From the NCBI RefSeq assembly GCF_022008365.1, contig NZ_JAIRBA010000029.1, positions 1-50,941 on the forward strand: DNA of 50,941 nt. The letters are read 5' to 3'. This document shows, one piece after another, positions 16,726-50,941 of this stretch. The notes under the pieces are model-generated. The model saw only the letters and a list, made by a program, of their open reading frames with translations, made no database searches and was not told where the DNA came from. The first letter of the stretch is position 1; each line of letters begins with the position of its first letter. The stretch comes from Aequorivita vitellina. Its GTDB lineage: Bacteria; Bacteroidota; Bacteroidia; Flavobacteriales; Flavobacteriaceae. A program made the position numbers and the translations under genes.

Positions 16726-17178
16726 CTATTCCCACACATACCGTTCATCATAATTCACCTTATACTTTTTCAAAAATGTTCGAAATTCATTCTGAAATGT
16801 TTTCTTTTTATGATGTTGATGCTGATTGGCAATATATCTTATTACGATATCAACTTGAGATGGGTTTACCGAAAAAGCACCATACCCATCCTGCCAGTAG
16901 AAATTTTTATATTCCGGCCCCTTAGTTTTAATCCATTTAGAGGAATGTGATTTTACTTTTTCAACTAACTTCATAAGCGGTATTTTTTTAGAGAGCCTAC
17001 AAAGAATATGTACATGGTCTGTGTAACCACCTACTTTGATTACTTGAGAGTCAAATTTGTTGCAAATACCACCGAGATAGCTATGTAGTTCTTCCTCGAC
17101 TGGCGGAAATATTAAAGGTTGTCGATGCTTCGTGCTAAAAACAATATGAATGTAATTTTTTACTAGTGATTGCCCCAT
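16726..17178 (-). mobile_element. REP-associated Y1 tyrosine transposase (RAYT, IS200/IS605 TnpA-like)
   Basis: The complete 150-residue single-domain HUH transposase has the metal-binding motif H55-x-H57 (TDHVHIL) and catalytic Y115 within VIRYIANQHQHH. The C-terminal KKKTFQNEF is typical of the Bacteroidota group. There is no TnpB and no long terminal repeats, which fits a RAYT rather than a full IS200/IS605. RAYTs nick and process REP hairpins in single-stranded DNA. The REP-like cluster directly downstream is its probable substrate. The frame is intact, so it may be active. Confidence 0.9.
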
Positions 17179-47875: not shown

Positions 47876-49774
47876 ATGAGCGACGCCTTAAAACACGAAT
47901 GTGGAATTGCACTAGTAAGACTGTTGAAACCCTTGGAATACTACAAGGAAAAATACGGAACGGCTTTTTACGGGGTAAACAAAATGTATTTAATGATGGA
48001 AAAGCAGCACAACCGCGGACAGGACGGTGCGGGTTTTGCCAGCATTAAAATGGATGTAAATCCTGGGGAACGCTATATTAGCCGCGTTAGATCAAACGCC
48101 GCGCAGCCAATTCAAGATATTTTTTCGCAGATTAACGAACGAATAAATTTAGAGTTTTCGCAACATCCCGAATATAAAGACGATGTTGCCGCTCAAAAAA
48201 AGAACATACCCTATATAGGTGAACTTTTTCTTGGCCACGTGCGTTACGGAACCTTCGGCTTAAATAGCGTTGAGAATGTTCATCCTTTTTTACGTCAGAA
48301 TAACTGGATGCACCGCAACTTAATTATTGCGGGAAATTTCAATATGACGAATACCAACGAGCTTTTCGACACACTTATAAAACTGGGAATGCATCCAAAA
48401 GAAAAGGCCGATACCGTTACCGTGATGGAAAAAATTGGTCACTTTTTAGACGATGCAGTGCGCAAGCTTTATAAAAAAGCAAAAGCCAAAGGTTTAAGCA
48501 AACAAGAAGCTTCACCATATATTGCCAAACATTTAAACGTAGCAAAGATCCTTCGTAGATCGGCCGCAGATTGGGACGGAGGTTATGCAATGGCCGGACT
48601 CCTTGGGCATGGCGATGCTTTTGTTCTTCGCGATCCTGCAGGGATTCGTCCCGCGTATTACTATCAAGATGACGAGGTAGTTGTAGTGGCATCTGAACGT
48701 CCAGCAATCCAAACGGTATTTAATGTTCCTTTTGAAGAAGTTAAAGAACTTGAGCCTGGAAACGCAATAATAATAGAGAAAAATGGAAAGATGAAACTCT
48801 CAGAGATTCTGCCTCCTTTAGAACGAAAATCCTGTTCCTTTGAACGTATATATTTTTCTCGCGGAAGTGATGCCGAAATATACCAAGAACGGAAAATGCT
48901 TGGGAAATTAGTGATGCCAAAAGTATTGGAATCAATTGATTATGACACAGACAATTCGGTTTTTTCATTTATTCCGAATACAGCCGAAACTTCCTTTTAT
49001 GGCATGTTAGAAGCAGCCCAAGACGAATTAAACAAGCAGAAAAATGAGGCTATTCTCAAGGAACGAGATAGCTTAACTGAAGAACGCCTTCGCGAAATAC
49101 AAGCTCATAAAGTTAGAACTGAAAAAATTGCCATTAAAGACGTAAAACTCAGAACTTTTATTACTGACGATAGTAGCAGAGACGATTTGGTAGCGCATGT
49201 TTACGACGTAACCTACGGTGTAGTAAAAACCGATGATAATCTTGTTATTATTGATGACAGTATTGTTCGCGGCACAACTTTAAAGAAAAGTATCTTAAAA
49301 ATGCTCGATAGGCTTAACCCCAAGCAGATAGTTGTAGTATCTTCAGCGCCGCAAATACGATATCCAGACTGTTACGGGATTGATATGGCACGTCTTGAAG
49401 ATTTAGTAGCATTTCAAGCAGCTTTAGCGCTTCATAAAGATCGTGGAACTTATACTATAGTTGAAGACATCTACCAGCAATGCAAGAAACAAGTGGCAAT
49501 GGAAGATGCTGCTGTTATCAATCACGTCAAAAAACTTTATGCGCCGTTTTCAGATGAAGAAATTTCAGACAAAATAGCTGAAATTATTAGTGAAGAAAAT
49601 ATAAAGGCTAAAGTGAAACTTATCTTTCAATCTGTAGATGATTTACACAAAGCATGTCCAAAAAATCTTGGTGATTGGTACTTTACAGGTAATTATCCCA
49701 CAGCTGGAGGCAACCGAGTTGTTAATAGAGCCTATATCAATTTCTTCGAAGGAAATCCAGAACGCGCCTATTAA
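47876..49774 (+). CDS. Amidophosphoribosyltransferase-like protein, long Bacteroidota form
   Basis: The 632-residue protein starts MSDALKHECGIALVRL, with C9 as the N-terminal nucleophile of a class II glutaminase after presumed propeptide removal. RGQDGAGFAS and FLGHVRYGTFG complete the glutaminase. The phosphoribosyltransferase domain has LVIIDDSIVRGTTLKKS, the PRPP-binding loop. It is ~130 residues longer than ordinary PurF, with an inserted charged, coiled region (ELNKQKNEAILKERDSLTEERL) before the PRPP domain. Bacteroidota often carry such a long paralogue as well as PurF, so the symbol is withheld. It would make phosphoribosylamine from PRPP and glutamine. Confidence 0.87.
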   Translation: MSDALKHECGIALVRLLKPLEYYKEKYGTAFYGVNKMYLMMEKQHNRGQDGAGFASIKMDVNPGERYISRVRSNAAQPIQDIFSQINERINLEFSQHPEYKDDVAAQKKNIPYIGELFLGHVRYGTFGLNSVENVHPFLRQNNWMHRNLIIAGNFNMTNTNELFDTLIKLGMHPKEKADTVTVMEKIGHFLDDAVRKLYKKAKAKGLSKQEASPYIAKHLNVAKILRRSAADWDGGYAMAGLLGHGDAFVLRDPAGIRPAYYYQDDEVVVVASERPAIQTVFNVPFEEVKELEPGNAIIIEKNGKMKLSEILPPLERKSCSFERIYFSRGSDAEIYQERKMLGKLVMPKVLESIDYDTDNSVFSFIPNTAETSFYGMLEAAQDELNKQKNEAILKERDSLTEERLREIQAHKVRTEKIAIKDVKLRTFITDDSSRDDLVAHVYDVTYGVVKTDDNLVIIDDSIVRGTTLKKSILKMLDRLNPKQIVVVSSAPQIRYPDCYGIDMARLEDLVAFQAALALHKDRGTYTIVEDIYQQCKKQVAMEDAAVINHVKKLYAPFSDEEISDKIAEIISEENIKAKVKLIFQSVDDLHKACPKNLGDWYFTGNYPTAGGNRVVNRAYINFFEGNPERAY

Positions 49775-49872
49775 TTTTTTAATTTTTTAACACCGCAAAC
49801 ACCGTTTAACGGAATTCTAATCCACTTAAACGAATTTGTTGATTCACAATATTTTAAGGCCAAAAGTTGAAT

Positions 49873-49973
49873 TATATTTGGGCTTACCATTAGGCGTAAG
49901 TAGGTTAGGTCTATGGTAAGATTTGGGGCAAAAAAGGTAGATCGAAAGATCTGCCTTTTTTCATGCCCCAAAT
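49873..49973 (+). ncRNA. Structured small-RNA candidate, copy 1 (array leader)
   Basis: A TATATTTG box (49873-49880) is followed by stem 1 (49883-49890 with 49913-49920, 8 bp perfect). A 10-bp outer stem (49921-49930 with 49964-49973) then encloses a 13-bp inner hairpin (49931-49943 with 49948-49960, one G-U) capped by GAAA. The inner hairpin has an A-run on the left and a T-run on the right, like an intrinsic terminator. A second copy at 50782 has the same layout but a different inner stem sequence. No -33 TTG at proper spacing; expression is unproven. Confidence 0.55.
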
Positions 49974-49980
49974 TCGGGGT

Positions 49981-50410
49981 GGCGAGCTTTCAAATTGTCT
50001 TTATCAATTCAAAACCTTTATGCGAGGCGTTTTTCCAACTCGCATTCGAAAGTTTGCATTTTATCACTTCTACTATGGATTACTGTTAGCGTGATTGGCG
50101 AGCTTTCGAAATGTCTTTATTAATTCAAAACCTTTATGCGAGCCGTTTTTCCAAATCGCATTCGAAAGTTTGCATTTTATCACTTCTACTATGGATTATT
50201 GCTAGCGTGATTGGCGAGCTTTCAAATTGTCATTATTAATTCAAAACCTTTATGCGAGCCGTTTTTCCGAATCGCATTCGAAAGTTTGCATTTTATCACT
50301 TCTACTATGGATTACTGTTAGCGTGATTGGCGAGCTTTCAAATTGTCTTTATTAATTCAAAACCTTTATGCGAGCCGTTTTTCCAACTCGCATGCGAAAG
50401 TTTGTATTTT
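49981..50410. repeat. Tandem array of 116-bp units (three full, one partial)
   Basis: Units begin with ggcgagcttt at 49981, 50097, 50213 and 50329, an exact 116-bp period. The fourth unit diverges after ~80 bp. Each unit holds an inner hairpin (atgcga/tcgcat, 7 bp in units 1 and 4), flanking arms (ctttcgaa/ttcgaaag, perfect in unit 2) and a second hairpin (atcac/gtgat) around ttctactatggatta. Differences between units are scattered single bases. There are no unique spacers and no open reading frame of note. Confidence 0.88.
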
Positions 50411-50781
50411 TTTGGTTTCAATTCGAATTTCTAATTGAATGAGTTGCGAGTTTTTAAACATTTTTATCCGAACAACTAATTTTTGGTCGTTGTATAGAAT
50501 CTTTAGAAAGCTCTGGAATATTTCAGGCTACTATTTCTTCAAGCGGCTGAAATTGTAAAGGTTGCTCATCATCTATTAAACGCAACCTATATTATATTAC
50601 GGGAAATTTCCAAACTCAAAAAAGTTTACCATTTAATAATTATCACTTTCAGGACTTGGATGAGTTGTGTTAAAATATTAACTAAACCAATCAACTTCAA
50701 TTCCAGATTTAACGAATAGAGCGTTTCATCGAATAAACAAGCGTTTCGTCTAAAAGCAAAATTTGCAATCAGATAATGTTA
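50411..50781. other. Gene-free A+T-rich stretch between array and second structured element
   Basis: No credible reading frame, tRNA or rRNA is seen. It contains a local near-duplication (agcgtttcatc / agcgtttcgtc around 50719-50750) and one gttgcgagttttt segment near 50443 that may be a degenerate remnant of an array unit. Confidence 0.5.
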
Positions 50782-50879
50782 TATATTTGAGCATACCATT
50801 AGCATAAGTAGGTTAAGTTCATGGTAGATTTGGGGCAAAAAAAGACAAACACTCGTTTGTCTTTTTTTATACCCAAATC
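50782..50879 (+). ncRNA. Structured small-RNA candidate, copy 2
   Basis: TATATTTG at 50782-50789 (TTG 16 bp upstream) is followed by stem 1 (50794-50799 with 50821-50826). The outer stem is 50827-50834 with 50872-50879. A perfect 14-bp inner hairpin (50837-50850 with 50855-50868) has a 4-nt loop and A/T flanks. The core ccattag-cataagtaggtta is shared with copy 1, while the inner stem is different yet still perfectly paired. After it, ggggtggcgagc leads on as in copy 1. Confidence 0.55.
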
Positions 50880-50941
50880 TGAACGGGGTGGCGAGCATCC
50901 GATGTTTTATTACAAAGTTCTAAATATCAATCGAGCCGTTT

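Follow-up and report, generated by a model that had tools for sequence, protein, structure and literature searches.

A putative trans-acting small RNA of Flavobacteriaceae with a predicted CAP-domain lipoprotein mRNA target and an accessory tandem array in one branch of the family

Introduction

The window analysed here, a stretch of 50,941 nucleotides from Aequorivita vitellina (contig NZ_JAIRBA010000029.1), ends in two similar, apparently structured segments, each followed by tandem repeat units. What do these segments encode, and what are the repeats behind them? The first-pass annotation, made from the sequence alone, had described them as two diverged copies of one leader-plus-array module running past the edge of the window, and had named as candidates an uncharacterised flavobacterial RNA family (with Flavo-1 of Rfam for comparison), substrates on which a mobile element acts, or RNA templates of an enzyme encoded further to the right. 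To our knowledge, few small RNAs (sRNAs) with conserved targets have been described in Bacteroidota. We therefore describe the locus, the two leaders, their distribution, a predicted target, and the arrays in turn, and then weigh the possible explanations.

Results

Both leaders are located between a purF-like glutamine amidotransferase gene on the left (47876-49774, plus strand; an ORF of 632 aa with the Pfam domains GATase_7 and GATase_6) and a convergent gene for an Fe/Mn superoxide dismutase, sodA. Contig C119 (genome G000, 3.63 Mb) ends with the window, and sodA is found on a second contig, C109, whose first 83 nt match the end of the window at 99%, with one base different. Based on this match, the break between the two contigs most likely lies between two units of the second array. 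The expected continuation beyond the window edge was indeed found, since C109 opens with a near-identical array unit (L004, 1-83), and sodA comes next. To the right of array 2, where an enzyme with templates in this RNA had been suggested as one candidate, there are instead sodA, a helicase-like ORF, and housekeeping-like ORFs, of which only sodA was checked against Pfam. Among 67 loci fetched from the family, many of them short, a purF homologue is present in 59 and sodA in 55. The relative G009, assembled as a single contig, also has two leaders, with arrays of 3.6 x 124 bp and 2.6 x 118 bp, and the layout is therefore no assembly artefact.

The two leaders are 77% identical over 115 nt, and comparison of their parts (77% identity in a 43-nt part, 90% in a 21-nt part) confirmed them as diverged copies. 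The layout attributed to both was also recovered: each has a TATATTTG box, a 5' hairpin, the ttgggg/cccaa complementarity, a long A/T-flanked hairpin, and GGGGTGGCGAGC. Copy 1 occupies 49883-49962 on the plus strand (fold z -8.11; model match 86.4 bits) and consists of hairpin 1 (49883-49920), the linker ATTTGGGGC (49921-49929), and a terminator hairpin with a T run (49930-49961). Copy 2 is found at 50792-50868 on the same strand (fold z -5.04; model match 97.7 bits), with hairpin 1 at 50794-50826, the linker GATTTGGGGC at 50827-50836, and the terminator hairpin at 50837-50868. The linker (GAUUUGGGGC) between the 5' hairpin and the intrinsic terminator is unpaired in the fold. A simple terminator scan did not list the terminator hairpins of the sRNA, because their stems take in the A and T runs. 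The TATATTTG boxes directly upstream (49873-49880 and 50782-50789, both plus strand) have the form TAnnTTTG, which is given as the -7 box of flavobacterial sigma-A promoters in PMC9723704. One element of the proposed layout, the outer ttgggg/cccaa stem, did not hold up as part of the RNA: TTTGGGGC is kept where the 3' partner is missing (e.g. in L031, L033, and L036), and this partner (cccaa) is a piece of the array unit.

Upstream of each promoter, self-similarity revealed a direct repeat with a 20-bp period, TTTAACGGAATT / CTTAAACGAATTT at 49805-49837 for copy 1 and TTTCATCGAATAA / TTTCGTCTAAAAG at 50724-50756 for copy 2 (both plus strand). Across 158 upstream regions the mean best 11-mer self-identity at offset 20 is 6.79, compared to 4.70 after shuffling, and two matching half-sites are present in 66 of the 158 regions versus 3 in the shuffles. 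This direct repeat is probably the binding site of a regulator, for which a LytTR-type protein might be a candidate. Anatomy, fold, and covariation (see below) agree with an independent short gene that has its own promoter and intrinsic terminator, as expected of an sRNA, and judged by its sequence each leader appears to be a complete, self-contained, terminated sRNA gene.

The leader was matched in 22 of the 28 genomes of the genus, in each of them at two or more places if array pieces are included, and its occurrence is therefore beyond chance. The loci read in this genus contain two leader series, each of which keeps its own hairpin sequences. A covariance search, as proposed by the first-pass annotation, was performed with a model built from 31 sequences and detected the RNA well beyond the window locus, in 313 of 397 Flavobacteriaceae genomes and 194 of 237 genera with one to seven copies each; due to strict filters, these counts are lower bounds. 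In a sample of the order, 39 of 246 genomes gave a match, 32 of them from the same family. The other seven had one match each at 35-39 bits, not far above the 31-35 bits of chance matches on the opposite strand. Hence, the RNA is hardly present outside the family. At gathering scores, no Rfam 15 family, Flavo-1 included, matched the window, and the three sub-threshold matches between 45000 and 50941 look like chance (E up to 5) and do not include Flavo-1. The matches across the family, together with the lack of an Rfam 15 match, bear out the idea of an uncharacterised flavobacterial RNA family. In an alignment of 120 distinct sequences, which was fitted to the covariance model, 99.2% of the paired cells hold standard pairs, and two-sided changes occur in 10 of 25 pairs, nine of these in the terminator. 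Hairpin 1, its loop, and the linker are nearly invariant.

A candidate target was found by listing sites of TGCCCCAAA, the complement of the linker, in three genomes (G000, G009, and G013). Their number was modestly above the reversed control in two genomes and below it in the third. For G000 and G013 we examined the listed sites that lie outside the RNA locus, and for G009 a subset of the sites. Among 85 such sites, seven are near an ORF start, and one orthologous pair is located within the same 5' untranslated region (UTR). The corresponding gene encodes a CAP-domain protein (PF00188), which is presumably a lipoprotein given its signal-like start followed by a cysteine. Its UTR AACATCATGCCCCAAATTTGATGTCC folds as a hairpin with the linker complement in the loop.

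We then compared the region from -60 to +45 around the start of 70 homologues of this gene from 70 genomes, counting as a site any match of 8 nt or more to the complement of the RNA's linker, or of 9 nt or more to that of its loop. As expected for the target of an sRNA, complementarity to the mRNA start is conserved: sites are present in 61 of the 70 regions, compared to 63 of 3,500 shuffled sequences and 3 of 248 other ORF starts, the latter being ATG ORFs of at least 120 aa that include some that are no real genes (one of the three matches is an internal ATG of purF). The predicted duplex energy has a median of -32.7 kcal/mol for the CAP starts and a mean of -18.9 kcal/mol (sd 3.7) for the other starts, and 55 of 70 CAP starts fall below the 1% quantile of the latter. 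Where both sites are present (n=33), the linker site lies 5' of the loop site in 32 cases, which is the order that antiparallel pairing requires. Two layouts can be distinguished. In 38 of 70 homologues the UTR forms a hairpin with CCCCAAAT in its loop (GCTCCAAAT in one of them). The outermost pair of this stem is A-T in 8, G-C in 19, G-T in 3, and A-C in 8 cases, and the stem shows two-sided changes; one of the 38 stems is non-canonical and may be due to chance. The second layout (24 of 70) lacks the CCCCAAAT hairpin; its site is close to the start and often takes the form of CCAAATCT and then ACCTACTTATG with the start codon. Eight of the 70 homologues show neither layout.

The sites co-occur with the RNA. 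In 20 further start regions, a site was present in 10 of 11 regions from RNA-positive genomes and in none of nine from seven RNA-negative genomes, a control that is weakened by the fact that the RNA-negative homologues are also the more distant relatives. Among the 70 homologues, 59 of 67 from RNA-positive genomes have a site; of the RNA-negative genomes, G335 lacks it, and G318 (76% complete) and G369 (85% complete) have it. Eight of the nine homologues below the threshold thus come from RNA-positive genomes, and some of these nine may be paralogues. As the loop and the linker hardly vary, no covariation between the RNA and its putative target is visible. All of this evidence concerns the CAP gene found via the TGCCCCAAA sites. 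Two additional features were observed at CAP genes. In L378 and L391, a self-fold of the 5' UTR, in which AAGTAGG pairs with CCTACTT (z -1.9 and -2.6), can enclose the start codon, and its 5' strand resembles the sRNA. In L353 (G312), TAACCTACTTAC, a 12-nt complement of the sRNA loop, directly follows the 3' end of the CAP gene.

Tandem Repeats Finder (TRF) reported an array with a 116-bp period at 49980-50410 (3.7 copies, 94% matches, score 778). Array 1 as delimited by us comprises about four units of 116 bp at 49976-50410 (plus strand), with box A (GGGGTGGCGAGC) at 49976, 50092, 50208, and 50324 and box B (GCGAGCCGTTTC) 46 nt past each box A. Unit 1 includes TGCCCCAAAT, a complement of the sRNA linker, at 49964-49973 (plus strand). 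Of array 2, the window holds the first unit (50885-50941, plus strand), the box B of which is cut by the contig end; another unit is the one that opens C109. A unit contains a degenerate 3' half of the terminator, the linker complement, and a hairpin with tandem G-A mismatches, in which boxes A and B can pair as GGC-GA-GC / GC-GA-GCC. To compare units, 139 of them were reduced to 118 distinct ones, and the tandem G-A mismatch is kept in 114 and 111 of these. Among the variable cells of the A/B pairing, 19 are compensatory, 16 are changed on one side and still paired, 53 are changed on one side and broken, and 4 are broken on both sides. The paired fraction of 0.903 exceeds the shuffled mean of 0.874 (maximum of 1,000 shuffles: 0.892), with the related rows not being independent. 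The 77 unit spacers fold no better than shuffled sequences on either strand (mean z -0.33), and the A/B helix is part of the minimum-energy fold in 35 of them. A CCCC/GGGG stem inside the unit found no support, because CCCC varies while GGGG stays.

Exact unit patterns gave 31 matches in 15 of the 28 genus genomes and 20 matches in 9 of the 397 family genomes, with no match in the controls of either search. Each of these units either follows the RNA or sits at a contig end where an array of this kind continues. A fuzzier scan of the fetched loci recognised 73 units behind the RNA and one elsewhere. Overall, a single RNA copy is followed by zero to seven recognised units. Since units follow the leader in only 19 of the 67 family loci and the leader is self-contained, the assumption of a single module is not supported. 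Rather, the array appears to be an accessory confined to this RNA, in one branch of the family. Of the first units, 51 of 65 contain a linker complement (score of at least 8 out of 10), as do 30 of 54 downstream units and 3 of 70 array-less RNA copies; in the window it is lost from units 2-4 of array 1. The linkers between units tend to resemble the terminator of the adjacent RNA: among strong rows, 14 are closest to their own and one to the other copy, and in total 48 are closest to their own, 16 equally close, and 15 closer to the other, where the counts include overlapping loci and the 20-nt words compared take in part of the 5' arm. This resemblance suggests that the arrays arose by local duplication.

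Several arrays deviate from this scheme. In L101, L111, L113, L122, and L124, the CCAAAT piece is replaced by a longer, structured segment M (GCCGCTGCCGCGGGTATCTCC...TTTCGATAAGGTGGCGAG). A search for M in six genomes gave strong matches only at the arrays, except for one diverged copy in G327 (L200, 1501-1635), about 250 nt 3' of a tRNA-Phe gene. In several genera, an additional stretch of about 20 nt, similar to CTACGGCAGGCAGG, separates the T run of downstream units from the CCAAAT piece (seen in the array linkers of L022, L028, L048, L120, L121, and L171), and in some units of L103, L107, L109, and L171 the hairpin has the GC-GA motif repeated two or three times.

Phage and plasmid records gave no match, and no viral contig had a core of the leader-2 type, which is the only core that the pattern used there fits. 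Enzyme scans covered reverse transcriptases (RTs) and Y1 transposases in 18 array-bearing genomes outside the genus. An RT domain (PF00078) was present in one of the 18, and we rejected a retron, a DGR, or another RT template. The Y1 domain (PF01797) was found in four of them, with weak matches (E 7.6e-8 to 4.4e-5). Together with the fact that units are not dispersed, exact patterns occurring only at the RNA locus or at the contig ends that continue it, this led us to discard a REP/RAYT system. The array needs neither an RT nor a Y1 transposase. The genome of the window does have a Y1 transposase (PF01797); a Y1_Tnp gene of IS200-like or RAYT type (150 aa) is located at 16726-17178 on the minus strand.

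Discussion

We propose, with a probability of about 0.78, that the locus contains tandem genes for a trans-acting sRNA with a CAP-lipoprotein mRNA as its pairing target, with an array as an accessory feature in one branch of the family. The two leaders would be genes for a base-pairing sRNA conserved across Flavobacteriaceae. Both genes have a promoter and an intrinsic terminator of their own, and the direct repeat upstream of each is probably where a regulator binds. Two nearly invariant surfaces, the loop region of hairpin 1 (CAUAAGUAGGUUAAGUU) and the linker (GAUUUGGGGC), would both pair with the translation start region of the CAP mRNA. As this pairing would cover the start region, repression is its likeliest outcome, and the RNA thus most likely represses translation of the CAP lipoprotein. 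In one branch, a tandem array would have grown behind the RNA genes, with units that carry target-like linker complements and the tandem-GA hairpin; it might act as a read-through decoy or as a tail that sequesters the linker, or have arisen as a side effect of repeated local duplication. What is read directly from the DNA is the anatomy of the genes, their conservation and synteny, the complementarity to the target, and the anatomy and confinement of the array. Transcription of the genes, their regulation, the repression, and any function of the array are what we infer from it.

The role of the array is where explanations compete most closely. We see about an even chance that it is merely a by-product, in that hairpins and repeats behind a terminator favour tandem duplication and the units persist without function. 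This fits with the absence of arrays from 48 of the 67 fetched family loci, the near-identity of units within an array, the leaning of between-unit linkers towards the adjacent RNA's own terminator, the lack of special folding in the spacers, and the loss of the linker complement from units 2-4 in the window. Against this, the two boxes and the GA mismatch are retained across genera, with compensatory changes, which neutral repeats would not require. Somewhat less probable is a working sponge, where read-through transcripts would expose GA hairpins and several sites complementary to the linker, thereby titrating the RNA or folding back onto its linker. The frequency of the linker complement in first and downstream units, compared to array-less copies, agrees with this, and so does the link between array and target: among 39 genomes in which both states are known, arrays occur in 22 of 31 with the CCCCAAAT-loop target and in none of 8 others (Fisher p 0.0004, phylogeny not corrected). 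The restriction of arrays to genomes with this target suggests that the units may be decoys imitating it. But the array lies behind a strong terminator, and the site is missing from many units, including units 2-4 in the window, both of which speak against a function; duplication by-products are at least as likely as decoys. We regard as rather doubtful the more far-reaching idea of a self-limiting sRNA locus, whose 3' flank was amplified into target mimics that tune the RNA in cis or trans and co-evolved with the loop target. If it were true, the mimics would be the linker complement plus the tandem-GA hairpin, and the target shows the same sequence in the loop of its 5'-UTR hairpin.

Two other explanations concern the target and the origin of the repeats. 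The element at the CAP gene could be a cis-acting leader or a protein-binding site that shares its sequence with the RNA for reasons other than pairing, and the fold enclosing the start codon in L378 and L391 may account for some of the conservation. We consider this unlikely, because the CAP sites are reverse complements of the RNA, are bipartite in the antiparallel order (32 of 33), co-occur with the RNA, and are of the linker type in some clades and of the loop type in others. That a mobile element uses the locus as its substrate, or that an RT, nuclease, or integrase uses its RNA as a template, is very improbable. Tandem units repeating the 3' end of an RNA gene do resemble integration scars at RNA genes, and the diverged M copy in G327 sits behind a tRNA-Phe gene. 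Yet RT and Y1 matches are restricted to one and four of the 18 genomes scanned, phages, plasmids, and viral contigs gave no match, and no RT, nuclease, or integrase gene is found next door. The occurrence of exact units only behind the RNA or at continuing contig ends also speaks against the mobile-element reading of the first-pass annotation.

As proposed here, the RNA resembles the enterobacterial envelope sRNAs MicA, RybB, and MicL in being short and terminated and in its predicted pairing with the mRNA start of an envelope protein, but differs from them in its unrelated sequence, its two pairing surfaces, its tandem copies at one locus, and its occurrence in another phylum. Like the tandem multicopy sRNAs Qrr and OmrA/OmrB, it has several near-identical copies, each with its own promoter; unlike these, it varies from one to seven copies by genome and is conserved between purF and sodA. 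Many array units, though not units 2-4 in the window, share with the SroC and ChiX decoys, which act as sponges or decoys of sRNAs, a complementarity to the pairing surface of the RNA, whereas they are tandem units behind the RNA's own gene and their sponge role is putative. The tyrT repeats of Escherichia coli likewise lie in tandem behind an RNA gene whose 3' end they copy; the arrays described here differ in following a regulatory RNA, in their conserved GA hairpin, and in occurring in many genera. Within the family, Rfp18 of Flavobacterium psychrophilum is described as a conserved, strongly structured sRNA predicted to target metalloproteases via its third stem-loop (PMC9723704). Going by this description alone, our RNA shares conservation and strong structure with Rfp18 and is set apart by its predicted CAP-lipoprotein target. 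One of the transcripts reported in PMC9723704 may be the RNA described here. A literature search by locus, neighbours, target, and sequence, at the level of listings, retrieved no description of it.

Taken together, the locus would add to the Flavobacteriaceae an RNA family without an Rfam entry, present at a conserved locus, in one or several copies, in the majority of the genomes sampled from a large environmental family. A specific target is predicted for it, which point mutations in two short stretches could test, and a putative regulator site lies upstream. The arrays provide a natural series for studying the possible titration of an sRNA and the growth of repeats 3' of terminators.
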